Positions 26,125 to 42,778 of a stretch of DNA of 64,000 nucleotides are shown here, one piece after another. A program made the translations under genes and the position numbers. The DNA comes from Sphingomonas koreensis. Its GTDB lineage: Bacteria; Pseudomonadota; Alphaproteobacteria; Sphingomonadales; Sphingomonadaceae. The notes under the pieces are model-generated. The model ran no database searches. It worked only from the letters and a program-made list of their open reading frames with translations, and was not told the DNA's origin. The first letter of the stretch is position 1, and each line of letters starts with the position of its first letter. Location: the NCBI RefSeq assembly GCF_002797435.1, contig NZ_PGEN01000001.1:3408501-3472500 (forward strand), read 5' to 3'.

Positions 26125-27324
26125 CTAGAGCCCGAACAGATCGACGCCGATCTCGGTACGGATGCCGAGGACGAGGGCGTCGGCGACCGTCGGATCGGCC
26201 GAGGGACGGCGGATATATTGGGCATGGGGCTGGACCGCGAGCCAGGGAGATAGCTGGGTGCGCCAGGTCGCCTCGATCGCGATTTCCGCGGCGGAAGCAC
26301 CGGTGGCGGTGCGCCAGGGTTCGGCGGTGAAGCCGGCGGCGAGCGCGATGCCGAACTCGTCCTCGTCGCGGCCGGGGATCCAGCCGGTGAATTTGAGCCC
26401 GGTGCTGATGAAGAAATCGAACATGTTGAAGCGGCCGCTGGCGGTGCCGAAGCGGGCGAAGCCGTCGAGCCTGCGGCCGGGTGCAGCGGACAGGGGCAGC
26501 TCGGCGCGGAGATAGGTGCCGCTATTTCCGGTCGCCGTGCCGCTGCCGTCGGTGAGGTCGAAGCGCGCGGTGTAGCGCCAGTGGCCGAGCAGCAGCTTGC
26601 CGCCTTCGCCGAGCGGCGCCTGCACCTCGCCAACGAGCAGTGCGCCCTCGTCCTTGCTGAGGCGCACGACAGTACGGCCGGGGCGGGCGGGATCGCCGGG
26701 AACGCCGTCGAGCACGGCGGCGCGCGCCGCCCAGCCCTTTGCCGGCTCGACCTGGATCCGCGCGGCGAGCGAGGTCGAGGGGAAGATCGACGGGCCGTTC
26801 TGCCCGCTCTGGCTGAAATCGGTGCCGATGCCGTGCGCGCTGCCGACGAACAGGCCCGAAGCGTCGAGCGCGTCGAATTCGGAATTGAGGTCGTAGAGGC
26901 CGGCGCGCAGCGAGACGCGCTCGCCGAACTTCTGATCGATCCATGCCTCATAGAGGCGGAAGGCGCGAACGCCGGTCTCGATATTGCTGACCGCATGGCT
27001 GTCGCCGACCCAGTCGCTGATCGAACTTCCGTTGTTGTAGAGGCCGTAAAGGTGGAGCTGCGCGCCCGTCCAGCCCGCGACCTTCTCCAGATCGGCCTCG
27101 AACACGATATCGAGATTGTCGAGATAGCGCGCGCCGCGCCGGAGGCCGCCTGCGGCGTTGCCGATCAGCTCCGCCGTGTAGGTGACCTGGAACAGCAGCG
27201 GGCCGTGCGCCTCTTCGATCTCGGCGGGTGCGTGGGTGTGGCTGTGCGGGCGGGTGCCGTCCTGCGGCGGAGCGGCGGGCGGCGCATCGGCAATGGCGGC
27301 GAGGGCGAGGGCGGGGAGGAGCAT
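26125..27324 (-). CDS. OprB-type carbohydrate porin
   Basis: A 399-residue outer-membrane porin with a short signal peptide (MLLPALALAAIADAPPA), then a His-rich segment TRPHSHTHAP. OprB features: YLDNLDIVFEADLEKVAGW, AQLHLYGLYNNG, GLYDLNSEFD and the aromatic-rich closing strands. It lets sugars or related polar solutes through the outer membrane. Its ATG overlaps the stop of the putative-porin gene (TGATG), so it is translationally coupled as the third gene after the PepSY protein. Confidence 0.85.
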   Translation of the reverse strand: MLLPALALAAIADAPPAAPPQDGTRPHSHTHAPAEIEEAHGPLLFQVTYTAELIGNAAGGLRRGARYLDNLDIVFEADLEKVAGWTGAQLHLYGLYNNGSSISDWVGDSHAVSNIETGVRAFRLYEAWIDQKFGERVSLRAGLYDLNSEFDALDASGLFVGSAHGIGTDFSQSGQNGPSIFPSTSLAARIQVEPAKGWAARAAVLDGVPGDPARPGRTVVRLSKDEGALLVGEVQAPLGEGGKLLLGHWRYTARFDLTDGSGTATGNSGTYLRAELPLSAAPGRRLDGFARFGTASGRFNMFDFFISTGLKFTGWIPGRDEDEFGIALAAGFTAEPWRTATGASAAEIAIEATWRTQLSPWLAVQPHAQYIRRPSADPTVADALVLGIRTEIGVDLFGL

Positions 27325-28568
27325 CAGAAACTCACCATGAAATTGAGGCGGACGCGATCGAGCCAGCCGAGCGGCGCGGCGGTGTAGCGCGCGTCGAGCG
27401 GGCGGTAGTGATACCAGGCGAGGTCGACCAGCAGGCTGGGCGCGGGGACATAGCCGAGACCGACGCCGTGGAGGCGGTAGTTGGTCGAGAGATCGAGATT
27501 GTCGTGGCTGAAGGCGGCGAAGACCGCGTCCACTTGAACCTCCGAATAGGTGTAGGCGATGCGCCAGTCGCCGCGCTGCGCGATGCGGCCCGCGGCGAAT
27601 TCGAGGGCGAAGCCGGTATCGCCCGGCACCGCCGCGCCAAGGTTGCGGATATAGTCGGCGGTGAAGGCGAGCGGCCAGCGCGGCGACAGGCCGGCATAAG
27701 TGAGGCTGCCGAGCCCCTCGATCAGATGGAAGTCGGAGCGATAGCGGCCGCCGGAGATGAGGTTGCCGCGGAAATCGCCCGCATCCGCGCCAGCGACCGA
27801 GCCGAGGCGATAGTGGTAATAGCTGCCCGCGAGCGCGAGCTTGAGATCGGAACCGAGCGGCGCGGCGGCGTTGAGCTGGCCGCCGAGCAGGTCGCTGTCG
27901 CGCGCGACCGAGGCTTCGTCGATCACGAACCAGAGCGCACGCGCGTCGAGCTTGGCGCCATTGCCGGGATCGAGCGCATAGATCGCGCCCACGCCCTGGG
28001 GCGAGACGTCGCCGTCCCACACCATGTCGGTGCGCTGGAAGATCTGGGGGAATTTGCCCGCCTGAACGGTGAGGCCGCCATGGGCGTAGCGGATCCAGGC
28101 CTGATCGAGCGAGGCGGCGAGATCGTCGGCGAAATTGCCGAGCGTGACGTCGGTCGAATTGGGATCGTCGGGGTCGCCGGTGGCGAGCTGGGCGCCGATG
28201 GAGATACGGTCGTTGACCGCATAGCTGGCGCGGACGCGAGCGCGCAGCACCGAGCGCGAGCGATCGCGCGCGGTGCCGTAATTCCACTCCTGCCGCACGC
28301 GAAGATCGCCGCCGACGTCGAGGCCGGGGATCCGGAAGGCGGCGGCGCGCGCGGGGGCTGCGGTGGCGAGCCGGGGCGCGGGGCTGGCCTCGGGGGCAGG
28401 CTGGTCGAGCTGCGCGGACTGGCGGGCGACCAGCGCCTCGAGCTGTTCGATGCGCGCCTGCTGTTCGGCGAGGCGGCGCTCGAGCGCGTCGAGGCGGCTG
28501 TGCTGCGCATGCGCGGGAAGCGCGGCGGCGAGTGCCGTCGCGGCGAGAAGGACGGAACGGATACGCAT
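27324..28568 (-). CDS. Putative porin with N-terminal coiled coil
   Basis: A 414-residue outer-membrane protein: signal peptide MRIRSVLLAATALAAALPAHA, then a coiled coil (LDALERRLAEQQARIEQLEALV trimmed to LERRLAEQQARIEQLEAL) like trimeric porins use for peptidoglycan anchoring, and a beta barrel ending LNFMVSF. It belongs to the putative-porin family seen near TonB receptors in sphingomonads; substrate unknown. It starts 4 bases after the PepSY gene and overlaps the OprB gene. Confidence 0.85.
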   Translation of the reverse strand: MRIRSVLLAATALAAALPAHAQHSRLDALERRLAEQQARIEQLEALVARQSAQLDQPAPEASPAPRLATAAPARAAAFRIPGLDVGGDLRVRQEWNYGTARDRSRSVLRARVRASYAVNDRISIGAQLATGDPDDPNSTDVTLGNFADDLAASLDQAWIRYAHGGLTVQAGKFPQIFQRTDMVWDGDVSPQGVGAIYALDPGNGAKLDARALWFVIDEASVARDSDLLGGQLNAAAPLGSDLKLALAGSYYHYRLGSVAGADAGDFRGNLISGGRYRSDFHLIEGLGSLTYAGLSPRWPLAFTADYIRNLGAAVPGDTGFALEFAAGRIAQRGDWRIAYTYSEVQVDAVFAAFSHDNLDLSTNYRLHGVGLGYVPAPSLLVDLAWYHYRPLDARYTAAPLGWLDRVRLNFMVSF

Positions 28569-28572
28569 CGGC

Positions 28573-29661
28573 CTACCCCCTTGCGCGCGGCTTTCGGCGC
28601 CTGAACCAGAGCAGCGTGCCGGCGACGATCATCGTCACCAGCCACAGGCCGATCGCGATCGAGAGGATGCGGCCGACAATGCCGCCGGCCTCGCCGGTGT
28701 GGATCGGGAAGAGCGCGCTCATGAAGGCGTTGGCGGGCGCCGCCTCGCCGGCCGGAAAGGTGCCCCGGACCTTGCCGGTGTTGGCATCGACCAGCACGAA
28801 GCTGCCGCCATAGGCGCGGCGGATCTCGCCGGGCGCGCGGACGCGGACGCGCCAGGTGGCGTCGTCGGGCTTGGGCCAGGCGACCTGAGTCAGCGTGCTG
28901 CCGGGTATCGCGGCAAGGCCCGCGCGCGCGGCGGCGGCGAAGCCGATCGGTTCGCCCGCGGGCGGATTGGCGGGGAGCGAGACCGACTCGGCCCCGATCA
29001 GGTCGCCGATCCCGTCCTCGAACTTGAGCATCGTGCCGGTGGCAGCGATGACCAAAGCGGGGATCGCTGCCCACAGACCGACCGCTCGGTGCCAGGTGTA
29101 GAGGCGCGCGGCGGCGGGGCCGCGCGTCGCGGGCTTGAGCGCGATCCGCCAGGTGCCGCGTTTGGGCCAGGCGGCGACCAGGCCGAGAACGAGGTTGGAG
29201 CAGAGCAGCACGCCGCTGATCGCGACGATCCAGCTGCCCCACGACCCTAGCAGATCGTGGTGGAAGCCGACGAGGAAGCCCATCACGCTTTCCTCGTCCG
29301 GACGTGGCATATGGAGGATCGTGCCGTCCCCGGCGATACGGACCGAGCGATCCTTGCCCTCGGCATCCTCGTAATAGACATTGTAGCGATCGGCCGCGCC
29401 CGCGGCGGTCCAGATCGACGCGGCCCTGGCTGCGCTCCCCGGCGGGGCGAGCGTATCGATGCGGCGTTCGATCGCGGCGAGATCGGTCGGGCGGTGCGCG
29501 CCCGCGATTCCCGCGTCGGTGATCTCCCAGTGGAAGACGATCAGGATGCCGGTGAGCGCCTGAAGCAGCCAGAAGACGGCGGCACCGAGGCTGAGCCAGC
29601 GATGGAGCTTGAGCAGGGTGCGGCGCAGCGATGGCCGCGCGGAGGGAGCGGGGGCGGTCAT
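28573..29661 (-). CDS. PepSY-associated transmembrane protein (periplasmic reductase-like)
   Basis: A 362-residue inner-membrane protein with about four transmembrane helices and a periplasmic PepSY region. Helix-associated histidines are visible (LHRWLSLGAAVFWLLQ, GFHHDLLGSW, YTWHRAVGLW, FPIHTGEAGG); in the family they are thought to bind haem and support reduction of ferric siderophores. It leads an operon with two porin genes. A MocR-type motif lies upstream at 29684-29728, tying it to the receptor and amidohydrolase genes. Confidence 0.87.
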   Translation of the reverse strand: MTAPAPSARPSLRRTLLKLHRWLSLGAAVFWLLQALTGILIVFHWEITDAGIAGAHRPTDLAAIERRIDTLAPPGSAARAASIWTAAGAADRYNVYYEDAEGKDRSVRIAGDGTILHMPRPDEESVMGFLVGFHHDLLGSWGSWIVAISGVLLCSNLVLGLVAAWPKRGTWRIALKPATRGPAAARLYTWHRAVGLWAAIPALVIAATGTMLKFEDGIGDLIGAESVSLPANPPAGEPIGFAAAARAGLAAIPGSTLTQVAWPKPDDATWRVRVRAPGEIRRAYGGSFVLVDANTGKVRGTFPAGEAAPANAFMSALFPIHTGEAGGIVGRILSIAIGLWLVTMIVAGTLLWFRRRKPRARG

Positions 29662-29683: not shown

Positions 29684-29728
29684 CAGGACCGCAACACATC
29701 CACTTTCTGGAAAGGATTGGGGACCAAG
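29684..29728 (-). promoter_or_regulatory. MocR-type composite motif, site a
   Basis: On the minus strand TTGGTCCC is followed after 17 bases by TGGATGT and four bases later by CGGTCC. The same order and spacing occur upstream of the receptor gene at 33235 and the gene at 35563. Position: 23 bases upstream of the PepSY start. The rest of the 187-base spacer to 29848 holds nothing recognisable. Confidence 0.55.
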
Positions 29729-29848
29729 CCGCTGCCGGCTTCGCGGTTGGTTCCCGGCATTGCCGAGGTGTTGAGATCTACTCGCGATAGCAGGCGCGGA
29801 TGGGGTGGACCCTTAAACCTGTCCGTTCGGGCTGCTGGACCGGGCCGA

Positions 29849-30904
29849 TCAGGGTAGGGCGGTGGTGTCGAGCGGCAGCGCGAGCTCGATCACCTCTGCC
29901 GACCGGTCGCGAACCTTTTGCGGCACCGCGATCAGCCCGCGCTTGGTGAGCGCACCGCCGGGCTCCCACATCGCCGAATAGAGGTGCAGGAATTCCTTGA
30001 GGTCGGGCATCGCATTGAGATGCTTCTTCTTCACGTAGAGATAGAGGCTGCGCACGCCGGGATATTTGCCGCTTTCGATATCGGCATAGGTCGGCGCCAC
30101 GCCCTCGATCGGCACGCCGTGGAGACGGGTGCGGTTGGCGTCGAGATAGGAATAGCCGACCAGCCCGATCGCATTGGGGTTTTCGGCCAGGCCCTGGACG
30201 ATCAGCGTGTCGTCCTCGCCCTTTTCGGCATAGGCGCCGTCGCTGCGCAGCTTGCGGCAGGTGGTTTCGAACAGCGCGGGATCGGGGGATTTCTTGAGGT
30301 CCGCAGCGGCGGGCATCGCGGCGAGGCAGCCCGCTTCGAGGATCAGCTCGACGAACGCGTCGCGCGTGCCGCTGGTCGAGGGCGGGCCGAGAACGAGGAT
30401 CGGGATCGCGGGGAGCGCCGGGTTGACGTCCTTCCACGTCTTCGCGGTGTTGGGCTTGCCCAGCGGGTTGGCGGCGAGAGCGAGGTAGAGATCCTTGCGG
30501 GTCAGCGCGAGCTTGGGCCCCGCATTGGACTCGGCCAGCGCGATGCCGTCGAGCCCGATCGGCACTTCGATGATGTCGCCGACCCCGTTGGCCTTGCACG
30601 TATCGAATTCGACTCGGCGCATCCGGCGCGAGGCGTTGACGATATCGGCGTGCGAGGAGCCAGCGCCTTCGCAGAAGCGGGCGATGCCGGCGCCGGTGCC
30701 GGTCGATTCGATCACGGGGGTACGACGGCCCTTCTTCGCTTCGACAAAGGCGTCGGCGACCGTCCTGGTGAAGGGATAGACGGTCGAGGAGCCGACGACG
30801 CGGATCTCCCGCGGAGTGAGCGCCGAGAGCGCGTCGCACGCGGCGAGGGTGAACGAGGCGAGCGTGATCAGGCCGAGTCTGGCAAGCATGGGCCGGGCAA
30901 GCAT
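29849..30904 (-). CDS. PstS-type phosphate-binding lipoprotein (orphan)
   Basis: A 351-residue periplasmic binding protein. The signal ends LASFTLAACDAL, a lipobox giving an acylated cysteine. Phosphate-site motifs of the PstS/SphX family are present: GSSTVYPFT, ESTGTGAGIARFCEG and PPSTSGTRDAFVE. GGAGG lies 8 bases before the ATG. No pstCAB permease genes are adjacent, so it may feed a distant transporter or act in sensing. A candidate Pho box lies about 75 bases upstream. Confidence 0.88.
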   Translation of the reverse strand: MLARPMLARLGLITLASFTLAACDALSALTPREIRVVGSSTVYPFTRTVADAFVEAKKGRRTPVIESTGTGAGIARFCEGAGSSHADIVNASRRMRRVEFDTCKANGVGDIIEVPIGLDGIALAESNAGPKLALTRKDLYLALAANPLGKPNTAKTWKDVNPALPAIPILVLGPPSTSGTRDAFVELILEAGCLAAMPAAADLKKSPDPALFETTCRKLRSDGAYAEKGEDDTLIVQGLAENPNAIGLVGYSYLDANRTRLHGVPIEGVAPTYADIESGKYPGVRSLYLYVKKKHLNAMPDLKEFLHLYSAMWEPGGALTKRGLIAVPQKVRDRSAEVIELALPLDTTALP

Positions 30905-30979
30905 TGGACTTCCTCCCCATCGGTACGCCGGGGGCGCAGAAACACATGCGACCGTCAGGTGACGCTGTGCGCCCGAGCG

Positions 30980-30997
30980 GTTACCGGCGTGTGACAG
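30980..30997 (-). promoter_or_regulatory. Candidate Pho box for the PstS-type gene
   Basis: On the minus strand CTGTCAC-N4-CGGTAAC forms two direct repeats of 7 bases with 11-base period, each one base off the PhoB half-site consensus (CTGTCAT/CTGTAAC). Confidence 0.5.
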
Positions 30998-31017
30998 GGA
31001 GCGAAGCCGGGCGGCGC

Positions 31018-31046
31018 AAAAAGGCCCGGCTGTCGCCAGCCGGGCC
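31018..31046 (-). terminator. Intrinsic terminator of the TonB-receptor gene
   Basis: On the minus strand a 10-bp GGCCCGGCTG stem with a four-base loop is followed by TTTTT. It lies just after the receptor stop at 31073, a canonical rho-independent terminator. Confidence 0.88.
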
Positions 31047-31072
31047 CCAGGGTGCGACGCGCGATCGCGGGA

Positions 31073-33235
31073 TCAGAAGTCGATCGTCGCCGATGCCTTG
31101 AAGGTGCGCGGCATGCCCTGGACGAGATAGCCGCCGAGCGAGGAGGCCCAGTAGCGCTTGTTCGCCACGTTATCGACGTTGAAGCGGAAGGTGACCGGCG
31201 CATCGCCAATGGCGACGACGTAGCGTGCGCCGAGGTCGAAGCGGGTCCATTCCGGCAGCTCGAGGGTGTTGGTGAGGTTCACCGCCTGCTTGCCGGTCTG
31301 CATCACGCGGCCGGTGAGCGTCAGGCCGCCATAGACGTCCCATTCGACATTGGCGTTGGCGGTATATTCCGGCACGCCGATCGCGTCGCGGCCGTCGGTC
31401 AGCCCGCCGGCGGTGCGGCGCTGCTTGGCGTCGGTGACCGAAACGCCGGCGATGATACGCAGGCCCTTGAGCGGCTCGCCATCGACGCTGACCTCGACGC
31501 CCCTGTTGCGCTGAAGGCCGTTGAGGGTGAACACGGTGCCGCCCGGCGTCACCTCGTTCAGCGTCTGAGGGCGATCGGTCGTGAACGCCGCGATCGAGGC
31601 ATTGAAGCGGCCGAGCGCCACCTTGCCGCCGATCTCATACTGGACCGCCTGATAGGGCGGGAACACCTGGCCGACGTTGATCGTGCCCGCACCGGCGACC
31701 GGTCCCTGGATCAGCGCTGCGATGCGGTTGGCGTAGAGCGAGATCTTTTCGCTGGGACGGATCACGATGCCGACAACCGGGGTGGTCGTGCTCTCGCTAT
31801 ACTCGGTGTTCTGCGCCTTCGTGGTGATGTTGTAGGTGCGGAAGTGGATATTCTGGTGCCGCAGGCCCAGCGTCACCTGCACCACATCGTCGGCGAAGCC
31901 GAGCGTGTCGGAGACGAAGATGCTGTCGAGACGCGTCCGGTTGGCGGGATTGGGGTCGGCGAGGTTGCCCGCACGCAGCGCCGTGAACGCGGGGATCGCC
32001 ACAGCACGGGGCGTATAGAGGTTGTTGAGATTGGTGCCGTTGACGGCATCGTCGTCGAACCGGCCGAACTCATAGGCATTCCGGTTGACGTAGCGGCTGT
32101 GCGAATAGCCCATGTTGAGCTGATGGGTGATGCCCCAGCCTTCGCCCTTGAAGCGCAGCCCGGCCTGGGCCGCTTCGTTATTGTCGTTGCGCGGGATGTT
32201 CGAGCCGGTGACGAACGCTGCGCCGGTGGTCGAATTGAGCAGCTGGAAGCCCTGATAGATTCCGCGCTCGGCGGTATCGCGCGCGCCCGCCGAGGCATAG
32301 AACATCAGAGACTCGGTCACGTCATATTCGAGCTTGAAGATGCCGAAGACGTCGCGGATCGTCTGGTTGTACCAGGGCTGGCCATAGTTGAGGTCGGCGC
32401 GCGGGGGACGCGGTACCGCGGTGACCGTGCCGTACTTGTTGTTGAGCTGGACCATCGGGCGCATGTGCTGCGCCTTGACGCTCTGATAGGCGAGATCGAG
32501 GCTGACGCGCAGATTGTCGGTGCGCCAGTCGAAGCTGCCGCCGACCACGGCCGAGCGGCGATATTCGCCGTCGATCGCGATATCGCCCGAACGGTATGCG
32601 CCGTTGAGGCGGAAGCCGAACGCCTTGCCTTCACCAAAGCGGCGGCCGAAATCGAATGCGCCGCCGAAATGCTTGTCGGACAGCCAGTTGGCGGTGAGGC
32701 GGTTGGTGTCCCGGTCCTTCGCGCGCTTGGGCGTGAGGTTGACCGTGCCGCCCAGCGCGGAGCCGCCAGGCGCGGCGCCGAACAGGAAGGCGCTGGCGCC
32801 GTTGAGGATCTGGATCTGGTCGTAGAGTTCGGGCGAGACGAGCTGGCGCGGGGTGACGCCGAACAGGCCGTCGATCGCGATGTCTTCGCCGAACAGGTTG
32901 AAGCCGCGGACGACGAACTGCTCTGACATGTTGCCGAAGCCGAGCGTGGTGCGGACCGAGGGGTCGTTCTCGAGCACCGCGCCGAGCGTCAGCGGCTGCT
33001 GGTTGAGGATCAGCGCTTCGTTGTAGCTCTTGACCGCAAAGGGCGTATCCATCGCATCCTTGTCGCCCAGCGCGCCGAGCGAGCCGTTGCGGCTGACCTG
33101 GGTCTGGTTGTCGCGCTGAGCGGTGATGACGACGTCTTCGCCCGCTGCCGTTTCCTGCGCAAAGGCGGGTGCGGCGAGCGCGGCGGCGAGAGCGGCGACG
33201 GCGGCTCCCCTGACTGCGATACGGTGGGCAACCAT
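31073..33235 (-). CDS. TonB-dependent receptor, siderophore-receptor type
   Basis: A 720-residue outer-membrane receptor: signal peptide MVAHRIAVRGAAVAALAAAL, a TonB-box-like EDVVITAQ, a plug domain (SVRTTLGFGNMSEQFVVRGF, trimmed to MSEQFVVRGF, and QILNGASAFLFGAAPGGSALGG) and a 22-strand barrel ending TFKASATIDF. It imports a large ligand using TonB energy. Annotated siderophore type by similarity, but its shared upstream motif with amidohydrolase genes suggests an organic nutrient instead. Start chosen at ATG 33233-33235; the frame is open upstream. Confidence 0.9.
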   Translation of the reverse strand: MVAHRIAVRGAAVAALAAALAAPAFAQETAAGEDVVITAQRDNQTQVSRNGSLGALGDKDAMDTPFAVKSYNEALILNQQPLTLGAVLENDPSVRTTLGFGNMSEQFVVRGFNLFGEDIAIDGLFGVTPRQLVSPELYDQIQILNGASAFLFGAAPGGSALGGTVNLTPKRAKDRDTNRLTANWLSDKHFGGAFDFGRRFGEGKAFGFRLNGAYRSGDIAIDGEYRRSAVVGGSFDWRTDNLRVSLDLAYQSVKAQHMRPMVQLNNKYGTVTAVPRPPRADLNYGQPWYNQTIRDVFGIFKLEYDVTESLMFYASAGARDTAERGIYQGFQLLNSTTGAAFVTGSNIPRNDNNEAAQAGLRFKGEGWGITHQLNMGYSHSRYVNRNAYEFGRFDDDAVNGTNLNNLYTPRAVAIPAFTALRAGNLADPNPANRTRLDSIFVSDTLGFADDVVQVTLGLRHQNIHFRTYNITTKAQNTEYSESTTTPVVGIVIRPSEKISLYANRIAALIQGPVAGAGTINVGQVFPPYQAVQYEIGGKVALGRFNASIAAFTTDRPQTLNEVTPGGTVFTLNGLQRNRGVEVSVDGEPLKGLRIIAGVSVTDAKQRRTAGGLTDGRDAIGVPEYTANANVEWDVYGGLTLTGRVMQTGKQAVNLTNTLELPEWTRFDLGARYVVAIGDAPVTFRFNVDNVANKRYWASSLGGYLVQGMPRTFKASATIDF

Positions 33236-33331
33236 GTTCAAATACTCCCCCGAGCTGGTGTTGCGTGTCCCTCCCGATACGGGTCTGATCTGAGCCAGGC
33301 TCTGTATCGTGAGGGTAACATGCGAGTCGGG

Positions 33332-33376
33332 GTTGGTCCGCGAAACATCCAGTTTGGGGATGTGCAAGGGTCCAGT
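33332..33376 (-). promoter_or_regulatory. MocR-type composite motif, site b
   Basis: On the minus strand CTGGACCC is followed after 16 bases by TGGATGT and four bases later by CGGACCAA. It lies about 100 bases upstream of the TonB-receptor start, in the spacer 33236-33410. Confidence 0.55.
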
Positions 33377-33410
33377 CGGGCAATCTGGCGACCGCGACGG
33401 CCAAGCAGGT

Positions 33411-35075
33411 TCAGCCGAAGCGCTGTACGCCCCCCACGATCGTGCGCAGCACGCTGGCCTTGGTCAGCAGATGGGAGTCGATCGCGAAGAAATCCCGGTC
33501 CCACACGACGAAGTCGGCGAGGAGCCCGGCGGCGATCAGGCCCATCTTCCTGTCGTTGAAACCGGCATAGGCGGCCTCGCGGGTGTAGCAGCGCATCGCC
33601 TGAGCCAGCGTGATGCGCTGTTCGGGGAACCAGCCATCGGGGTTCTTGCCGTCGAGCGTCTCGCGATCGATCGCGGCTTCGAGCCCGGTGAGCGGATCGA
33701 TCGGCGCGACCGGCCAGTCCGATCCCATGCAGACATGCGCGCCCGAGCGGACGAGCGAACCGAAGGCGAAGCTGGTCTTGAGCCGTTCCTCGCCGATCCG
33801 GCGCACCGCCCAGCGGCCGTCGTCGATCGCGTGATAGGGCTGGACCGAGGCGATCACGTCCTGGGCCTTGAAGCGCGGGATCGCCGCAGGCTTCATGTGC
33901 TGGACATGCTCGACGCGAAAGCGGCGGTCGCGCGGGCCGTTGGTTCTGGCGACCGCGGCGAAGGTATCGAGGACGATGTCGTTCGCCTCGTCGCCGATGG
34001 CATGCGCGGTGACCTGAAGCCCGGCCTTGTCCGCGCCGGCGATCCAGTTCAGCAGATCCTTTGGATCGGTGACGACGATGCCGCGCGTGCCGGGCTCGTC
34101 GAGATAGGGTTCGTAGAAGCGTGCGGTGCGCGAGCCCAGCGACCCGTCGAACACCACCTTGCACCCGCCCCACTGAACCCAGTCGTCGCCGCGCCCCTGC
34201 TCCTTGATCAGCGCAACCTGCGCTTCCCAGTCCTTGAGGGGGAGATAGTGGCGGAAGCGAAGCCCCGTTTCGCCCTTCGCGCGCAGGCGGCGGGTCGAAT
34301 CGAAGCTGATCGTCTCGAGCTCGGTCGGGTGGACCTGAGTGACGCCCTTGCTCAGCGCGAGGGCGATGCCCTTGCGCGTGACAGCATCGATGCGTTCGGG
34401 CGTCTGCTCGCCGATCGCGCGCAGGACCAGGTCCTTGGCGGCGTCCTTGACGATGCCGGTGGGCTCGCCGTTCGCGTCCTTCTCGATCAACCCGCCCGGC
34501 GGCGAAACCGTGTTGCGGTCGATCCCAGCCAGCCGGAGCGCGAGCGAGTTGAGGAACAGCATGTGGAGATCGTAGCGGATCACCGCGACGGGCGTGTCGG
34601 GGGTGACCGCATCGATCCAGCTGCGGTGCGGCATCTCGCCGCCCCAGCGATCCTGATCCCAGTTGCCGCCCTCGAGCCAGGCGCCCTTGGGCAGCGCCTT
34701 CGCTGCGGCGGCGATGCGCGCGACGAGCTCCCTGGGATCGGCGGCGTCGCGCAGCGAGGGTTGCGACAGCATCGTCGCGGCCTTCACGAAATGGACGTGC
34801 GGATCGATGAAGCCGGGCGTGACGAACGCGCCCTGAAGGTTGATCACGCGGGTGCGCTTGCCGGTGCGGGCGCGCACCGCATCGGCGCCGATCGCGGCGA
34901 TGCGCTCGCCCTTCACCCCGATCGCGTCGGAGCGGCTATCGGGCCCGGCGCCGGTCCAGATCCTTGCGTTGATATATGCCGTGTCGAGATCGCCCCCGGC
35001 AGCGAAGGCATTGTGCGTGACCGCGGCCGCCGCGGCGCCGGCGCCAAGCGCGAGAAGTCCGCGGCGGCCGAGCAT
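33411..35075 (-). CDS. YtcJ-like metal-dependent amidohydrolase, exported
   Basis: A 554-residue amidohydrolase. I start at ATG 35073-35075 because it overlaps the previous stop (TGATG) and gives a signal peptide with twin arginine (MLGRRGLLALGAGAAAAAV). Metal site His93 and His95 are in DPHVHF. Further histidines are in VTAHAIGDEAN and VEHVQHM, and the final aspartate is in CMGSDWPVAP. The N-terminal FVTPGFIDPH fits the family. Relatives hydrolyse cyclic amides or N-acyl bonds; this substrate is unknown. It is coupled to the 35075-35563 gene. Confidence 0.9.
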   Translation of the reverse strand: MLGRRGLLALGAGAAAAAVTHNAFAAGGDLDTAYINARIWTGAGPDSRSDAIGVKGERIAAIGADAVRARTGKRTRVINLQGAFVTPGFIDPHVHFVKAATMLSQPSLRDAADPRELVARIAAAAKALPKGAWLEGGNWDQDRWGGEMPHRSWIDAVTPDTPVAVIRYDLHMLFLNSLALRLAGIDRNTVSPPGGLIEKDANGEPTGIVKDAAKDLVLRAIGEQTPERIDAVTRKGIALALSKGVTQVHPTELETISFDSTRRLRAKGETGLRFRHYLPLKDWEAQVALIKEQGRGDDWVQWGGCKVVFDGSLGSRTARFYEPYLDEPGTRGIVVTDPKDLLNWIAGADKAGLQVTAHAIGDEANDIVLDTFAAVARTNGPRDRRFRVEHVQHMKPAAIPRFKAQDVIASVQPYHAIDDGRWAVRRIGEERLKTSFAFGSLVRSGAHVCMGSDWPVAPIDPLTGLEAAIDRETLDGKNPDGWFPEQRITLAQAMRCYTREAAYAGFNDRKMGLIAAGLLADFVVWDRDFFAIDSHLLTKASVLRTIVGGVQRFG

Positions 35076-35563
35076 CACTTGCCCATCGCCGATTTGCGGG
35101 GCGGGTTTTCCGCGCGCCATTTGTCGAGCCGGGCGAGCCAGGTCGCCGCGGAGAGCGGGCCGTAGGTCTTGGAGTCGGTGTGCTCGGCGATCAGTTCGCG
35201 GATGTTGACGAAATAGGCGGGGCCGCTCGGCAGGCCGAGTTCCTTGCGCTTGGCGGTCATCGCGGCTTCCTGCGCCGGGGTCGGCTTGAAGCCGGTCACC
35301 GGCTTGAAGATGATGACGTCGAAGTCCGCGCCATTCTCATGGAAGAAGAGCTGGATCGGCGGCTGGCCGCCGGCCGCCGCGACCTGATCCGCCTGGTCGA
35401 TGCGGCGGATGAACTCCTCCTGCTTGCCCGGCGCGAGCTTGAAGATCTCGAACCAGGCTTCGGGCCAGGCCTCCTGCGCAGCGGCGGGCTTGGGTGCGTC
35501 CTGCGCCGCAGCGGGAACCGCCGGCAGGGCCAAGGCGGCAATGGCGAGCGTGAGATACTTCAT
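35075..35563 (-). CDS. Small periplasmic protein coupled to YtcJ-like amidohydrolase
   Basis: A 162-residue protein with signal peptide MKYLTLAIAALALPAVPAAA and GGAGG eight bases before the ATG. The mature part (WFEIFKLAPGKQEEFIRRID, then FFHENGADFDVIIFKPV) resembles a dimeric alpha-beta barrel of the NIPSNAP/ABM type, but this is only a pattern impression. It is first in a two-gene unit with the exported amidohydrolase and sits behind motif site c. Confidence 0.75.
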   Translation of the reverse strand: MKYLTLAIAALALPAVPAAAQDAPKPAAAQEAWPEAWFEIFKLAPGKQEEFIRRIDQADQVAAAGGQPPIQLFFHENGADFDVIIFKPVTGFKPTPAQEAAMTAKRKELGLPSGPAYFVNIRELIAEHTDSKTYGPLSAATWLARLDKWRAENPPRKSAMGK

Positions 35564-35599
35564 CTGTTGTCCTCCCTTTCGGCCAACGCTCCACCTTTG

Positions 35600-35646
35600 C
35601 GATGGATCGGAGAACATCCAACTCCCTGGTTTTTGAAGGGACCAGT
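35600..35646 (-). promoter_or_regulatory. MocR-type composite motif, site c
   Basis: On the minus strand CTGGTCCC is followed after 17 bases by TGGATGT and four bases later by CGATCCA. It lies about 40 bases before the 35563 start and overlaps the regulator stop codon. Confidence 0.55.
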
Positions 35647-37106
35647 CATCCCGCCGCTTCGCGCAGTGCCGCGACCGCGGTCTTCGCCTCATGCTCGTTG
35701 AGGCTGGCGAAGCCGATGCGCAGGCCGCGCGGGGCGTCGTCGCGGGTCATGAACGAGCGCGAGGCGGCGAAGCGCAGCCCCATCGCCGCGGCGCGTGCCT
35801 CCATCGCATCGAGATCGGTGTGGAAGCGCAGCCAAAAGGCGAGGCCGCCGTCGGGCATCTTGTAGTCGACGATGTCGCCGAGCGTGCGGTCGATCTCCGC
35901 GGCGAAATTCTCGCGCCGTTTGGCATAGACCTGCCGCACTTTCCGCGCATGGCGGCGGAGTTCCCCATTCTCGATGAGCTCCGCCGCTGCGTCCTCGGTC
36001 AGCGCATTGCCCATGCCGTCGGTGAGCGAGACCATGTGGGCGATCGCGTCGATCACCGGCGGCGGCGCGGCGACATAGCCGATGCGCAGCGCGGGCAGCA
36101 GCAGCTTCGACATCGATCCGACATAGATGACATGGCCCGGGCCGTAGCCGGCCATGGGCAGCAACGGCTGCGATTCGAAATGGAATTCGTGATCGTAATC
36201 GTCCTCGATGATCGCGAAGCCGAACTGGTGGGAGAGTTCGAGCAGGCGCAGGCGGCGCTCGGGGCGGAGCGAGACGGTGGTGGGGAATTGATGGTGCGGC
36301 GTCACGAACACCGCGCGGACCGCGTTGCGGCGGCAGGCATGCTCGACCGCGTCGATGTCGATCCCGTCCTCGTCCAGCCCGACCGCGACGATATTGGCGC
36401 CAAGCGCGCGGAAGGCGGCGACGGCGGGTTCGTAGGTCAGGGCTTCGACGATCACCGTATCGCCGGGACGGACCAGCACCTGCGCGGCGAGGAAGATGCC
36501 GTTCTGGCTGCCGCGGGTGATGCAGATATTCTCCGCGGTGACGGGCAGGCCGCGCTGGCTCTTGAGCATCGTCGCGATGCTCTCGCGCAGTGCCGGGGTG
36601 CCGCGCGGATTGCCGTATTGGAAACGATTCTCCCGCGACGCCCGGTGCGCCGCCGAGCGATAGGCGCGGGCGAGCAGATCGGCCGGGAACAGGCGGCCGT
36701 CGGGCGCGCCCTCGTCGAGCTTGAGGCCCGGGCCCGAGGGCAAGGCGAGCGGGCGTTGAGGCGGGGCGGCGAAGCGATAGTCGACCGGCACGTTGCTCAT
36801 CGTCGCCTCGGCCTCGGCCCGCTGCTTCTTGGCGGGTTCGGGCAACGACGCGGAGACCATCGTTCCGCGCGTGCCCGCCGAATCGAGCCAGCCCTGCGCG
36901 ATCAGATCCTCATAGGCGAGGACGACCGTCTTGCGATTGACGCCCAGCACCTGCGCCAGTTCGCGGCTGGAGGGGAGGTAGGTGCCCGAGGTGAGGCGCC
37001 CGCGCTCGATGTCGCGAATCAGCGCCTGGATGATCTGCATGTAGATCGGAACGTCGCGCGCGGGATCGATTCGCTCTCCCAGGCTGACCTGCCACGGACG
37101 CAGCAT
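35646..37106 (-). CDS. MocR/PdxR-type regulator (GntR winged helix fused to aminotransferase domain)
   Basis: A 486-residue fusion. The N-terminal GntR winged helix (about 15-85; LTSGTYLPSSRELAQVLGVNRKTV trimmed to SSRELAQVLGVNRKTV) is followed by a fold-type I aminotransferase-like domain with GNPRGTPALR, IIEDDYDHEF and the PLP lysine in GSMSKLLLPALRIG. Family knowledge: such regulators sense PLP-bound amines or amino acids and bind direct repeats. I start at ATG 37104-37106 with AAGGA upstream; ATG 37124 is possible. It is divergent from the PaiB-like operon. Confidence 0.92.
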   Translation of the reverse strand: MLRPWQVSLGERIDPARDVPIYMQIIQALIRDIERGRLTSGTYLPSSRELAQVLGVNRKTVVLAYEDLIAQGWLDSAGTRGTMVSASLPEPAKKQRAEAEATMSNVPVDYRFAAPPQRPLALPSGPGLKLDEGAPDGRLFPADLLARAYRSAAHRASRENRFQYGNPRGTPALRESIATMLKSQRGLPVTAENICITRGSQNGIFLAAQVLVRPGDTVIVEALTYEPAVAAFRALGANIVAVGLDEDGIDIDAVEHACRRNAVRAVFVTPHHQFPTTVSLRPERRLRLLELSHQFGFAIIEDDYDHEFHFESQPLLPMAGYGPGHVIYVGSMSKLLLPALRIGYVAAPPPVIDAIAHMVSLTDGMGNALTEDAAAELIENGELRRHARKVRQVYAKRRENFAAEIDRTLGDIVDYKMPDGGLAFWLRFHTDLDAMEARAAAMGLRFAASRSFMTRDDAPRGLRIGFASLNEHEAKTAVAALREAAG

Positions 37107-37150
37107 TGGACCGGTTCCTTCCATCAATGAAAACGATGATGGGGACCAAG
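37104..37150. promoter_or_regulatory. MocR-type half motif, site d, in the regulator/PaiB spacer
   Basis: The minus strand has TTGGTCCC (37142-37149), the same half-site as sites a-c, and 30 bases on, GGTCCAAT at the regulator start. The TGGATGT half is not conserved (TTGATGGA at about the right place). It may allow autoregulation and control of the divergent operon. Confidence 0.4.
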
Positions 37151-37272
37151 AGTAACGCGGCAACTGCCCGCTGGCAACGCCCGGCTGGACCCCGATGCTT
37201 TTCGGTCTTGGCGCTTGTCGGGTTCCGAACGCTGGGGAAGAAGGGGGCCATCAATCACAGGCATCGGGGCAG

Positions 37273-37917
37273 ATGGACGGGGCTGAAGCGAGCGCAGGCG
37301 TGACGAAAGCGCAGGAAAACCGGCCGCTGTTCGAGCGGTTCGGCGACGCCGATGTGCGCGCGCTGATCGAGGGGTTTCCGCTCGCCTGGGTGTGCGGCGG
37401 CGGCGCGGGTGCGGTGGAAGCGAGCCTGTTGCCGCTGATCGGCGTCTATGACGGCGAGGGCCGGCTGATCGAGCTGATCGGGCATCTGATGCGGTCCAAC
37501 CCCCTCCATGCCGCGCTGACCGCCGATCCGCGCGCGACGATCCTGTTCAGCGGCCCCGATGCCTATGTCAGCCCCGAACATGCCGGCCGCCGGGACTGGG
37601 CGCCGACCTGGAACTATGCGCAGGTGAAGGTCGGCGCGGAGATCGCGTTCGACGAGGCGCTGACCGAAACTTCGCTGAAGGTGCTGATCGACGCGATGGA
37701 GGCCGGCCGCGCCGAGCCATGGAGCGTCGAGGAGCTGGGGCCGCGCTATCAGGGCATGCTGACGCGGATCATCGGCTTCCGGGCGCGCGTCACTGCGCTT
37801 TCGGGCAAGTTCAAGCTGGGGCAGGACGAGGACGATGCGACGCTGCATGCGATCCTGGGGGCGCTGCCGGACGCGCAGAGCGTGGCGTGGATGAAACGGT
37901 TCAACGGGGGGCGTTGA
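37273..37917 (+). CDS. PaiB-like FMN-binding protein (negative regulator family)
   Basis: A 214-residue split-barrel protein (family FMN-binding negative transcriptional regulator). Marks: FPLAWVCGGG, LIELIGHLMRSNP, ILFSGPDAYVSP and APTWNYAQVKVGAE, a usual site in this family, and the closing LSGKFKLGQDE. It often lies next to PdxR-type genes, as here. Enzyme or regulatory role is unproven. It starts with ATG 37273 and ends two bases before the first amidohydrolase. Confidence 0.87.
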   Translation: MDGAEASAGVTKAQENRPLFERFGDADVRALIEGFPLAWVCGGGAGAVEASLLPLIGVYDGEGRLIELIGHLMRSNPLHAALTADPRATILFSGPDAYVSPEHAGRRDWAPTWNYAQVKVGAEIAFDEALTETSLKVLIDAMEAGRAEPWSVEELGPRYQGMLTRIIGFRARVTALSGKFKLGQDEDDATLHAILGALPDAQSVAWMKRFNGGR

Positions 37918-37919
37918 AG

Positions 37920-39281
37920 ATGCGGACGGGGGCACGGTTCGGCTCGGTGATTGCGGCGGCGGCCTTGCTGGCCGCGCCAGGGGCGGCGCAGGTCCGCTCC
38001 GCGGAGTGGAAGGACGATCCGTTCCCGAGCCGCTACACGCCCGCGCCATCTGGCGACATGCTGCTGCGCGGGGCGACGATCCTCGACGGCGCGGGCGGGC
38101 GCATCGACGGCGGCGACGTGCTGGTGCGCGGCGGCAAGATCGTCGCAGTCGGCAAGGCGCTGACCAATCCCGGCGTGCGCGAGGTGGATGCGAAGGGGCG
38201 CTGGATCACGCCGGGGGTGATCGATGTGCACACGCACAACGGCACCTTCGTCGTTCCGCTGACCGACATCGACCGCGAGGCGAGCGACGTGTCCGAGGTC
38301 AGCAGCCCCAATGGCGCCGACACCTGGATCGAGACCGCCGTCAACCCGCAGGACATGGGCTTCGACCGCGGCCTGATGAACGGCGTGACGACGATGCAGA
38401 TCCTGCCCGGATCGACCCCGATCTTCGCCGGGCGTTCGGTGGTGGTGAAGCCGGTGCGCGGCGCGACGGTGTGGGACATGAAGGCCGCGGGCAGCGCGCA
38501 GGGCTTCAAGATGGCGTGCGGCGAGAACCCCAAGAGCTGGGGCGCCGACGACGACAATGACGGGCCGACCAGCCGGCAGGGCGTGATCGCCTATATGCGC
38601 CAGGCGTTCCTCGACGCGCAGGCCTATGGCCGCGAGCGCGCGGCGGGCAAGGTCGGACGCGACCTCAAGAAGGAAGCGCTGCTGGGCATCATGGCGGGCG
38701 ACATCCGCGTCAATCTGCATTGCTATCGCGCCAACGACATCGCGTCGGTGCTGGCGGTGGCCAAGGAATTCGGCTTCCGTATCGGCGCGATCCACCACGC
38801 GACCGAGGCATACAAGATCCCCGGCCTGCTTCGTGAGAGCGGGACGTGCGCGGCGGTCTGGGCCGACTGGTGGGGCTTCAAGATGGAAGCGCAGGATGCG
38901 GTGCGCGCCGAGGCGCCGATGCTCGAGCGCGCAGGCGTGTGCGTGATGATGCATTCGGATTCGGCCGCCGACGGCCAGCGGCTCAACATCGCCGCGGCCA
39001 AGGCGGCGGCGGCGGGGCGCCGCATCGGCATCGAGACGCCACCCGAGACGATGATCAAATGGACCACGAGCAACCCGGCGAAGCTGCTGGGGCTGGAGGG
39101 CAAGGTGGGCACGCTGAAGCCCGGCTTGTCGGCCGATCTGGTGCTGTGGTCGGGCGATCCGTTCAGCATCTACACAAGGGCCGATCTGGTGCTGATCGAC
39201 GGCGCGGTGGCGTGGGACCGGTCGAAGCCGCCGGGCGCGCCGGTGTCGGACTTCGAGCTCGGCCGGGGAGGCGTGCGATGA
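37920..39281 (+). CDS. Metal-dependent amidohydrolase (imidazolonepropionase-like), exported
   Basis: A 453-residue amidohydrolase with signal peptide MRTGARFGSVIAAAALLAAP. The metal site His104 and His106 are in GVIDVHTHN; later ligands are NLHCYRAND, GAIHHATEA and MMHSDSAAD. The pattern of a periplasmic hydrolase acting on cyclic amide or peptide-like bonds fits, but the substrate is unknown. It is coupled by overlap (ATGA) to a paralogue at 39278 whose metal site is lost, so the two may form a heteromer. Confidence 0.9.
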   Translation: MRTGARFGSVIAAAALLAAPGAAQVRSAEWKDDPFPSRYTPAPSGDMLLRGATILDGAGGRIDGGDVLVRGGKIVAVGKALTNPGVREVDAKGRWITPGVIDVHTHNGTFVVPLTDIDREASDVSEVSSPNGADTWIETAVNPQDMGFDRGLMNGVTTMQILPGSTPIFAGRSVVVKPVRGATVWDMKAAGSAQGFKMACGENPKSWGADDDNDGPTSRQGVIAYMRQAFLDAQAYGRERAAGKVGRDLKKEALLGIMAGDIRVNLHCYRANDIASVLAVAKEFGFRIGAIHHATEAYKIPGLLRESGTCAAVWADWWGFKMEAQDAVRAEAPMLERAGVCVMMHSDSAADGQRLNIAAAKAAAAGRRIGIETPPETMIKWTTSNPAKLLGLEGKVGTLKPGLSADLVLWSGDPFSIYTRADLVLIDGAVAWDRSKPPGAPVSDFELGRGGVR

Positions 39282-40537
39282 TGCGGACGATCGCAATGCT
39301 GCTGGCATTCGCCGCGACGCCCGCCGCCGCGCAGACCATCGCCGTCACTCATGCCGAGGCCTGGACGATGGAGACGGGCGAGCCGGTGAAGGATGCCACG
39401 ATCCTGATCGAGAATGGCAGGATCGTCTCGGTCACGCCGGGCGGCGGCGTGCCGCAGGGCGCGAGCGTGATCGACGCGCGCGGAAAGCCGGTGACGCCGG
39501 GGCTGATGAACGGCGCAACGCAGGTGGGGCTGATCGAGACCGCGTCGGGCGACACGCGCGATCAGGGATCGGCCGACGACCGCAATCCCGGCTTCGATCC
39601 CTCGCGCGCGCTCAACGGCAATTCGACGTTGGTCAGCCTGATCCGCGCCGACGGCATCACCCGCGCCCTGGTCTATCCTTCGCCCTCGCGCATCCCGGTG
39701 TTCGCGGGCGAGCCGGCGATCGCGCGGTTCCGTGAGGGTGTCGACATCCTGGGCGAGCGCGAGGTAGCGGTCTATGCCGTGATCGGCGGCGGGGCATGGG
39801 ACCGGGTCGGATCGCGCGCGCAGCAATGGGCGGTGCTGCGCAAGGCGCTGGGCGACGCGAAGCGCGCGATGACGGCGCCCGAGACAGGCAAGGACAAGAA
39901 GCGCGATCGCCACGATCCACCACCGCGGCGCGGCCGCCGCGCGGGCGAGGAAGCGATCCGTGGCGTGATCTCGGGCGAGGCGCCGCTGGCGATCCACACC
40001 AACCGCGAGTCGGACATTCGCGAGGCGATCACGCTCGCCGCGGAGTTTGGCATCCGCGTCATCATCGTCGAGGGCGCGCAGGCCTGGCGCGTGGCCGATC
40101 AGCTTGCGGAGGCGAAGATCCCGGTGGTGCTCGATCCGTCGACCAACCTGCCCGGCGGCTTCGACGAGCTGGGCGCGCGGCAGGACAATGCCGCGATCCT
40201 GACGCGGGCGGGGGTGAGGGTCGCTTTCGGCCTTGCGGGCGGCAAGATCCACACCAACTACAATGCCGGCATGGCGTTGCGCGAAGGCGCAGGGATCGCG
40301 GTGGCGAACGGCCTGCCCTATGCCGATGCGTTGCGCGCGGTGACGGTCAACCCGCTGAGCATCTGGAGCAAGGGCGGCGGCACGCTGAGCGCCGGTGCCG
40401 ACGCCGATCTGGTGGTGTGGGACGGTGATCCGCTGGAGCCGTCGACCAATGCGGCGGCTGTCATCGTCGAGGGACGTCGGGTATCGGCGCGCTCGCGGCA
40501 GGATCTGCTTGCCGAACGCTACAAGGATGCTCGCTGA
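39278..40537 (+). CDS. Amidohydrolase paralogue lacking the HxH metal motif
   Basis: A 419-residue secreted protein (signal MMRTIAMLLAFAATPAAA) with the amidohydrolase fold: ATILIENGRIVSV, then TPGLMNGATQVG where functional enzymes have PGLIDxHxH. The two ligand histidines are Ala80 and Gln82. The late stretch LAIHTNRESDI retains one histidine and the closing LSAGADADLVVWDGDPL is typical. It is probably catalytically inactive, or uses other ligands, and may stabilise or regulate the intact paralogue translated just upstream. Its stop overlaps the proC ATG. Confidence 0.88.
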   Translation: MMRTIAMLLAFAATPAAAQTIAVTHAEAWTMETGEPVKDATILIENGRIVSVTPGGGVPQGASVIDARGKPVTPGLMNGATQVGLIETASGDTRDQGSADDRNPGFDPSRALNGNSTLVSLIRADGITRALVYPSPSRIPVFAGEPAIARFREGVDILGEREVAVYAVIGGGAWDRVGSRAQQWAVLRKALGDAKRAMTAPETGKDKKRDRHDPPPRRGRRAGEEAIRGVISGEAPLAIHTNRESDIREAITLAAEFGIRVIIVEGAQAWRVADQLAEAKIPVVLDPSTNLPGGFDELGARQDNAAILTRAGVRVAFGLAGGKIHTNYNAGMALREGAGIAVANGLPYADALRAVTVNPLSIWSKGGGTLSAGADADLVVWDGDPLEPSTNAAAVIVEGRRVSARSRQDLLAERYKDAR

Positions 40538-41313
40538 TGAACGTGTTGCTGGTCGGGTGCGGACGGATGGGCGGCGCGATGGCGCGTGGCTGGAATGGCG
40601 CGCATCGCGTGCTGGTGTTCGATCCGATGGCGGCCGAATTGCCCGAGGGCACGGAGCGGGTGGACTCGCTCGACGATGTCGAGGCGGGCGGCGAGATGGC
40701 CGTGGTGCTGGCGGTGAAGCCGCAGGTGTTTCCGTCGATCGGGGAGTCGCTGCGACCATTGGCGCGCCACGACGCGCTGTTCGTGTCGATCATGGCCGGG
40801 ATCACCTTGCAGGGGCTGAGCGATGCGCTGGGCAGCGGACGGACGGTGCGGACCATGCCCAACACCCCCGCCGCGATCGGACAGGGGATCACCGCCGCGG
40901 TCGCCGGGCGCGACGTGCGGATGGGCGATTTCGCCACGGTCAACGAACTGCTCGGTCCCACGGGACAGGTGGTGTGGATCGACGAGGAAGCGCAGATCGA
41001 CGCGGTGACGGCGGTGTCGGGCAGCGGCCCGGCCTATTTCTTCCGCTTCACCGAGGCGCTGGCCAGGGCGGGCGCGGAGGAGGGACTGCCGCCCGAGCTG
41101 GCGATGCAGCTGGCGCGCGCGACCTTTACCGGCGCGGCGGCGCTGGCAGGCGCTGACCCGGCCGAGCTGGCCGAGTTGCGGCGGCAGGTGACCAGCCCCG
41201 GCGGGACGACCGCGGCGGGGCTTGGGCAATTGGATCACGACGATGCGATCGACCGGCTCGTCCGGAAGGTCGTCGAAGCGGCGGCGGCACGTTCGCGCGA
41301 GCTGGCCGGATAG
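40537..41313 (+). CDS. proC: Pyrroline-5-carboxylate reductase
   Basis: A 258-residue NAD(P)H-dependent enzyme reducing pyrroline-5-carboxylate to proline in the cytoplasm. Rossmann motif GCGRMGG is at residues 7-13; family marks include MPNTPAAIGQG, AVSGSGPAYFF and RRQVTSPGGTTAAGL. It overlaps the upstream amidohydrolase gene (TGATG). Its place in an amidohydrolase operon suggests it serves catabolite processing here as well as, or instead of, proline synthesis. Confidence 0.93.
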   Translation: MNVLLVGCGRMGGAMARGWNGAHRVLVFDPMAAELPEGTERVDSLDDVEAGGEMAVVLAVKPQVFPSIGESLRPLARHDALFVSIMAGITLQGLSDALGSGRTVRTMPNTPAAIGQGITAAVAGRDVRMGDFATVNELLGPTGQVVWIDEEAQIDAVTAVSGSGPAYFFRFTEALARAGAEEGLPPELAMQLARATFTGAAALAGADPAELAELRRQVTSPGGTTAAGLGQLDHDDAIDRLVRKVVEAAAARSRELAG

Positions 41314-42690: not shown

Positions 42691-42753
42691 GTTGGCGGAG
42701 CGGGAATGTGCGTCTTGGCCCGTTCCTGACGGGAGTGGGGCAGGGTAGGCATT

Positions 42754-42766
42754 GCGAATCATTCGC
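42754..42766. promoter_or_regulatory. Fur/Mur-type palindrome before TolB-amidohydrolase gene
   Basis: GCGAA-TCA-TTCGC, extended as TGCGAATCATTCGCG, is one base off the symmetric TGCGAATNATTCGCA pattern reported for alphaproteobacterial Fur/Mur proteins. It lies 12 bases before the 42779 ATG. Confidence 0.4.
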
Positions 42767-42778
42767 GGGAGTTGGGGC

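Follow-up and report, generated by a model that had tools for sequence, protein, structure and literature searches.

The 64,000-nucleotide stretch of the Sphingomonas koreensis genome analysed here (contig NZ_PGEN01000001.1, positions 3,408,501 to 3,472,500 of the forward strand; hereafter the window, whose coordinates are used throughout) encodes a regulator of the MocR/GabR type, and three composite sites on the minus strand together with a fourth on the plus strand are, judging from sequence and conservation, very probably the operators of this regulator, which is encoded among them. The sites stand before genes for a PepSY protein with porins, a TonB-dependent receptor, a small exported-looking protein with an amidohydrolase, and a divergent operon. 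A new regulon of a known MocR operator class is well supported: two direct boxes plus one inverted box is the arrangement seen most often among MocR operators (103 regulogs and 245 regulons in Table 2 of Suvorova and Rodionov 2016, PMC5320631).

Probable operators and the regulator in the window

All four operators contain a pair of direct boxes, YTGGWCC and NTGGATG (TTGGCGC in the fourth), 23-24 bp or about 2.2 DNA turns apart; an inverted GRWCC box is the third box in operators 1 to 3. Operator 1 (29686-29727, minus strand) reads TTGGTCCC-N16-GTGGATG-TGTTGC-GGTCC, with a proposed -10 at 29673-29668 (CACACC), and ends ~25 bases before the ATG of the PepSY gene. Operator 2 (33335-33375, minus strand; CTGGACCC-N15-CTGGATG-TTTCGC-GGACC; proposed -10 at 33322-33317, CATGTT) ends ~100 bases before the ATG of the TonB receptor gene, and operator 3 (35604-35645, minus strand; CTGGTCCC-N16-TTGGATG-TTCTCC-GATCC; proposed -35 at 35614-35609, TTCTCC, and -10 at 35591-35586, GAGCGT) ends ~40 bases before the ATG of the small protein gene, which precedes the amidohydrolase gene. 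An earlier note on this DNA, made from the letters alone, had listed these three sites, and their sequences, order and spacings are as it claimed, the ends being off by 1-4 bases. Its reading of a MocR-type direct-repeat operator is supported for boxes 1 and 2 and missed the third, inverted box; its composite motif is real. The conserved TTTT/TTG after box 2 is better taken as a -35 element than as belonging to the regulator box.

The mocR gene (35646-37106, minus strand, ATG at 37106) encodes 486 amino acids, in which a GntR winged helix (Pfam GntR, 3.7e-14) is fused to an aminotransferase-like domain (Aminotran_1_2, 1.8e-28), the layout of MocR and GabR. The protein aligned to GabR of Bacillus subtilis (PDB 4n0b) at 6e-38 and retains the Schiff-base lysine (K334); the Lys, Asp and Tyr aligned with the pyridoxal 5'-phosphate (PLP) site of GabR are identical in 81/81 MocR sequences. 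In the spacer upstream of mocR the earlier note had seen TTGGTCCC with no second half. The first part was found (37149-37142, minus strand), and the missing second half was confirmed for the minus strand, where a full operator was considered and rejected, only half-sites being present; on the plus strand the statement fails, since the fourth operator (37185-37220; CTGGACCC-N15-TTGGCGC followed by a proposed -35, TTGTCG) lies there before the divergent operon, with a box spacing of 23 bases and a variant second box, TTGGYGC, that is kept in relatives. The minus-strand half-sites form a putative mocR autoregulatory element (37106-37149), made of TTGGTCCC and, one base ahead of the ATG, an inverted GGTCC (37112-37108).

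The pattern TGGWCCN{14,22}TGGATGN{4,7}GRWCC, built from the three sites, had no further match in the 4,398,689-base genome and none in the read-backwards control; YTGGWCCCN{14,17}TGGMNSTT gave three matches, namely operators 2 and 3 and 37185-37216 on the plus strand (control 0). When up to 3 mismatches were allowed in the full pattern and its spacer was fixed at N17, operators 1 and 3 were returned and nothing was added, the spacer of operator 2 being one base shorter; a strict form that required TT ahead of GGATGT detected operator 3 alone and was relaxed. All four operators fall in a stretch of 7.6 kb, and the patterns used detected none in the rest of the genome, so that the random genome-wide occurrence that had been envisaged as a reason to discard the motif is not what the genome holds. 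The position-weight scores of operators 1, 2 and 3 were 39.5, 35.3 and 40.0; in 115 reversed sequences (3,515,948 bases, both strands) four positions reached at least 8 bits, one at least 14 and none 16, and because these sites and their homologues served to train the matrix, the pattern counts over the whole genome make a fairer test.

Conservation of the proposed operators with the regulator

The loci compared were those of the best 80 of 538 confirmed MocR relatives, obtained by a protein scan of genome contigs. Twenty-five distinct sites were collected from the window and these loci, site 1 being a manual addition, and their consensus is YTGGWCCC-N15/16-NTGGATGTTTTNCGRWCC. The two-box core had 100 hits in the 80 loci, compared with 5 in the reversed sequences; among the 75 hits that were assigned to genes, the linker was 15 bases long in 45, 16 in 29 and 17 in a single one. 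Presence of the core followed the identity of the MocR protein: 11/12 loci at 80% or more, 16/19 at 70-79%, 27/30 at 60-69% and 8/19 below 60%, and it lay less than 350 bp upstream of a cluster-homologous gene in 11/12, 15/19, 21/30 and 3/19 of them, respectively. At identities of at least 60% this amounts to 54/61 loci with the core and 47/61 with the core so placed; the motif does therefore stand next to most homologous regulator genes of that identity, as the earlier note had proposed to check. A looser core had 131 hits in 1,656,618 bases of MocR loci and 18 in the reversed sequences.

Operator 3 was aligned in 12 sequences, including the window, and operator 2 with the receptor sites from 9 relatives. 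Sites before the small-protein, TonB receptor and PepSY genes recur in L005, L006, L007, L009, L010, L012, L042, L072 and L080 (L numbers designate loci of MocR relatives), among which some sites are weaker and the PepSY site of L042 was not found at the score used. The earlier suggestion of one operator common to PepSY and porins, TonB receptor, exported hydrolase and divergent operon is thus supported by comparative genomics, the divergent operon having an operator of its own. The boxes and the promoter positions are conserved and the linkers are not, which speaks strongly against a dispersed repeat or a chance likeness of GC-rich promoters; the boxes are short, and a loose pattern does match other genomes by chance, but as the patterns used turned up no other copy in the genome, we give this explanation next to no weight. 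In the loose family search 70/397 genomes matched, mostly by what look by eye like chance or coding matches, and tight forms were present, besides the window's genome, in G021, G201, G308, G310 and G376 (G numbers designate family genomes).

The upstream regions of mocR were aligned for the window and 21 relatives. In these 22 regions the divergent strand carries a block of YTGGWCCC, a linker often with TTTT, and TTGGYGCTTG, and the mocR strand carries cTTGGYCCC ~43 bases before the ATG; in the window and in many of the relatives, GGTCC also stands there, separated from the ATG by one base. Among 77 mocR starts, GGNCC was present at the start codon in 32 (a search that cannot see GGATCC forms), YTGGNYC within 80 bases in 36, and both in 25. 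Half-sites placed over the mocR start would fit autorepression.

Motif and regulator were also compared in one draw of 149 family genomes, with MocR called at E <=1e-150. MocR was encoded in 6/149 genomes, and YTGGWCCCN{14,17}TGGATGTT had 9 hits in 8/149: the motif was present in 5/6 MocR genomes (the window's genome being one of the five) and in 3/143 others (Fisher exact P 5.8e-7), the three motif genomes lacking MocR (G051, G093, G115) having one near-identical sequence in common. The site lies ~21 bases past the matched MocR end and directly before an Amidohydro_3 homologue in G021, ~14 bases past the matched MocR end and before FMN_bind_2 and Amidohydro_3 homologues in G057, and 350 kb from MocR, ~30 bases before an Amidohydro_3 homologue, in G011. 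In G140 the site and MocR are 5 kb apart; the site falls at the start of an open reading frame (ORF) that looks by eye like a TonB receptor, to which the window receptor had no tblastn match, and an ORF that looks amidase-like follows. In G138, the sixth genome with MocR, a variant site precedes an FMN_bind_2 gene. That the sites belong to another transcription factor, with mocR a bystander, is on these sequence comparisons very improbable: the motif tracks the MocR gene over the 149 genomes, half-sites of the MocR type lie across the mocR start, and the cluster proteins scanned included no other recognisable regulator.

Three further features were seen around the relatives. L059 and L072 are MocR relatives (63% and 85% identity) ~20 kb apart on one Sphingopyxis contig. 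A TTGTAACAT-like or TATAACAT stretch, absent from the window and possibly another control element, lies ~10-20 bases upstream of the receptor operator in L006, L007, L010 and L012. Near 13.2 kb in L040, L041, L043 and L045 two operators stand back to back in opposite directions, as if for a divergent gene pair.

Proposed promoter geometry and probable sign of regulation

Positions downstream of the boxes were counted from the first T of the box-2 TGG (position 0) in 111 sites, in-gene sites with no downstream cluster gene having been dropped, which were thinned to 90 operators with less than 60% identity. In the thinned set A occupies +30 in 80% (mean 24%) and T occupies +34 in 52% (mean 16%), with binomial values of 7e-29 and 2e-15, respectively, not corrected for shared ancestry. 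The A at +30 appears in all five gene classes: receptor (81%, n=21), small protein (100%, n=12), Amidohydro_3 (62%, n=13), PepSY (92%, n=12) and FMN_bind_2 (92%, n=24); the T at +34 stands out in the receptor, small-protein and Amidohydro_3 classes. We read +29 to +34 as a putative -10 and +6 to +11 (TTTTNC; TTGNNN at many FMN_bind_2 sites) as a putative -35, with a 17-base spacer; in this promoter box 2 abuts the -35, box 1 lies near -60 and box 3 falls within the -35/-10 spacer. A version in which TTTT/TTG belonged to box 2 was dropped given the fixed position of the -10. Leaving aside the box itself, ATG occurs most often at +41 (18/111 sites), where the start point would fall, and this predicts leaderless transcription for some operons; for the PepSY gene the predicted start point (29661) coincides with the A of its ATG, and its transcript is predicted to be leaderless.

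Boxes 1 and 2 upstream of the -35 with box 3 in the spacer make an activator-like layout, and the order box 1, box 2, -35, box 3 is that of a synthetic GabR-responsive promoter (PMC9452892), so that activation is the likelier sign. We lean towards a mechanism in which a PLP-bearing MocR dimer would sit on boxes 1 and 2 next to the -35, an external aldimine of an amine or amino acid with PLP would activate transcription, and autorepression of mocR would act through TTGGTCCC together with the inverted GGTCC, both lying over the start of the gene.

Several observations weigh against the assignment of the operators to MocR, or against activation. The core was derived from the same loci in which it was counted, making the loci counts partly circular; G138 appears to be the same as L065, so that the sets of genomes and loci overlap; and the family pattern read backwards had 4 hits in the 149 genomes compared with 9 forward. 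The looser core had 6 hits in 89,192 bases of 30 pattern-selected loci, a rate like that of the MocR loci, these 30 being unusable as a control because they were fetched for matching a like pattern. L008 (84% MocR identity) has neither the motif nor the cluster genes around MocR, and the second box of its divergent-strand block is absent; the inverted box fades in distant relatives. The T at +34 is not prominent in the PepSY and FMN_bind_2 classes, and the -10 of the fourth operator is weak (AAGAAG). In the protein, the position that aligns with Arg430 of GabR holds R in 47/81 MocR sequences and that aligned with GabR Arg207 is Pro in the window (column E226, which adjoins the latter, was set aside in the comparison). 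Finally, EnuR, of the MocR subfamily, is a repressor and its operators overlap the promoter core (PMC8739950).

By that precedent MocR would bind its operators as a repressor freed by an inducer, and box 3, between the proposed -35 and -10, is where a bound protein could block polymerase. We consider this unlikely: the two most conserved boxes, 1 and 2, precede the proposed -35 in the gene classes examined, conservation is lowest in box 3, and the -35 and -10 are weak, as at activated promoters.

Gene content, relation to known systems and meaning

Behind operator 1 lie genes for a PepSY_TM protein (28573-29661, minus strand, ATG 29661; Pfam PF03929, 1e-42), a Porin_5-type porin (27324-28568, minus strand; PF16930, 2.5e-24) 4 bases 3' of it, and a second porin-like exported protein (26125-27300, minus strand; named by eye from its translation, start not fixed), whose homologues are close to PepSY in several relatives. 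Operator 2 precedes the TonB-dependent receptor gene (31073-33235, minus strand, 720 amino acids, ATG 33235), whose product has the Pfam Plug and beta-barrel domains (longer ORF scanned) and scores 323.9 bits with the NCBIfam model TIGR01783 TonB-siderophor (cut-off 223.5). Between the receptor and PepSY genes there is a gene for a PstS-like phosphate-binding protein (29852-30904, minus strand) with no matching operator, and the tblastn maps of the 80 relatives list no match to this protein.

The first gene after operator 3 encodes the small exported-looking protein (35075-35563, minus strand, 162 amino acids, ATG at 35563), which matched neither Pfam (longer ORF 35075-35692 scanned) nor NCBIfam; it has 239 homologues, with no Pfam domain in the 120 listed. 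Its model (mean predicted local distance difference test score 70.3) gave NIPSNAP 5k9f in Foldseek (E 3.3e-4, TM-score 0.35 by query length), a weak suggestion that it may adopt a NIPSNAP/ABM-like fold. In L005 this gene is duplicated (11467 and 12056), each copy with its own operator, and no Amidohydro_3 match is listed. The Amidohydro_3 (YtcJ-type) hydrolase follows at 33411-35120 (minus strand; PF07969, 3.7e-95), with an N-terminal export signal that, like those of the other cluster proteins, was judged by eye.

The divergent operon, on the plus strand, begins with an FMN_bind_2 (PaiB-like) gene (37273-37917; PF04299, 1.6e-29, scanned from 37195); its longest ORF starts at ATG 37195, within the fourth operator, which makes ATG 37273 the likelier start. 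Further along the plus strand are genes for two exported-looking tandem amidohydrolases (37914-40537; ~37914-39281 and ~39278-40537, starts provisional; Pfam Amidohydro_1/3 on longer ORFs), a pyrroline-5-carboxylate reductase (ProC; 40537-41313; Pfam P5CR_dimer, TIGR00112 at 224 bits, cut-off 196.75), an MFS metabolite transporter (41350-42690; Pfam Sugar_tr/MFS_1, under the cut-offs of the NCBIfam models listed), a TolB-propeller/amidohydrolase fusion (42752-45973; Pfam PD40, Amidohydro_1) and an alpha/beta hydrolase (45898-46920; Pfam Abhydrolase_3).

FMN_bind_2 proteins have the same fold as pyridoxamine phosphate oxidases. The latter occur in PdxR/PdxW/PdxQ regulons (PMC5320631), and the window MocR passes the NCBIfam PdxR model (NF052282) with 347.9 bits (cut-off 320), as if it were a PdxR-type vitamin B6 regulator whose operons answered to PLP and not to a substrate. 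This is improbable, given that the genome has no pdxS-type gene by a search for PF01680 (pdxK was not searched for), that no B6 gene was recognised among the cluster proteins scanned, and that the targets are receptors, porins and amidohydrolases; a model that accepts MocR in a genome lacking a pdxS-type gene indicates that automatic naming may mislead.

The cluster hydrolase resembles the YtcJ family, which we take to be COG1574, and some of its homologues are named predicted amidohydrolase YtcJ. TauR regulons are similar in having COG1574 in some cases (TauR and TauR2), direct repeats and the box CTGGACYTAA (PMC5320631), whose CTGGAC resembles the YTGGWCC of box 1; they differ from the regulon described here in that box 2 is NTGGATG and no taurine genes were recognised among the cluster proteins scanned. 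GabR shares the domain layout, the PLP lysine and a divergent promoter pair with the window MocR, but its operator has direct repeats with the inverted one between them (PMC9452892, PMC5320631), and the window MocR falls short of the NCBIfam GabR model (198.5 bits, cut-off 600). The MocR regulons of PMC5320631 are alike in box number and orientation, in the TGG core of boxes 1 and 2 and in having targets beside the regulator gene, and unlike in content, the one here having a TonB receptor, PepSY, porins and exported amidohydrolases. The main text of that paper mentions neither Sphingomonadales nor TonB nor outer membrane, its supplementary tables may hold an unnamed matching regulog, and no description of this regulon was found in the literature searched on MocR, Sphingomonas, TonB receptor, amidohydrolase, operators and leaderless.

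The gene content (two porin-like proteins, four amidohydrolase-superfamily proteins, the ProC-like reductase, the alpha/beta hydrolase, the TonB receptor and the MFS transporter) allows a tentative view of the physiology: an amide-linked compound may be taken up by the TonB receptor, porins and MFS transporter and cut outside the cytoplasm by the amidohydrolase-superfamily enzymes; the amine or amino acid set free in this way would act as inducer. As a whole, a sphingomonad-centred MocR regulon might then sense the product of an undescribed outer-membrane/periplasmic amide pathway, with receptor, porins and amidohydrolases on promoters that are leaderless in a subset and with boxes, -35, -10 and ATG forming one rigid module, a picture that we put forward with reserve.

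With these operators, a regulator to which NCBI's model would give the name PdxR gains a regulon that can be tested, and several unassigned exported amidohydrolases are tied to a TonB receptor in a single response. The operator can also find regulon members far from the regulator, as in G011, and the rigid spacing of boxes, -35 and -10, in some operons extending to the ATG, offers a compact system to study activation by MocR.

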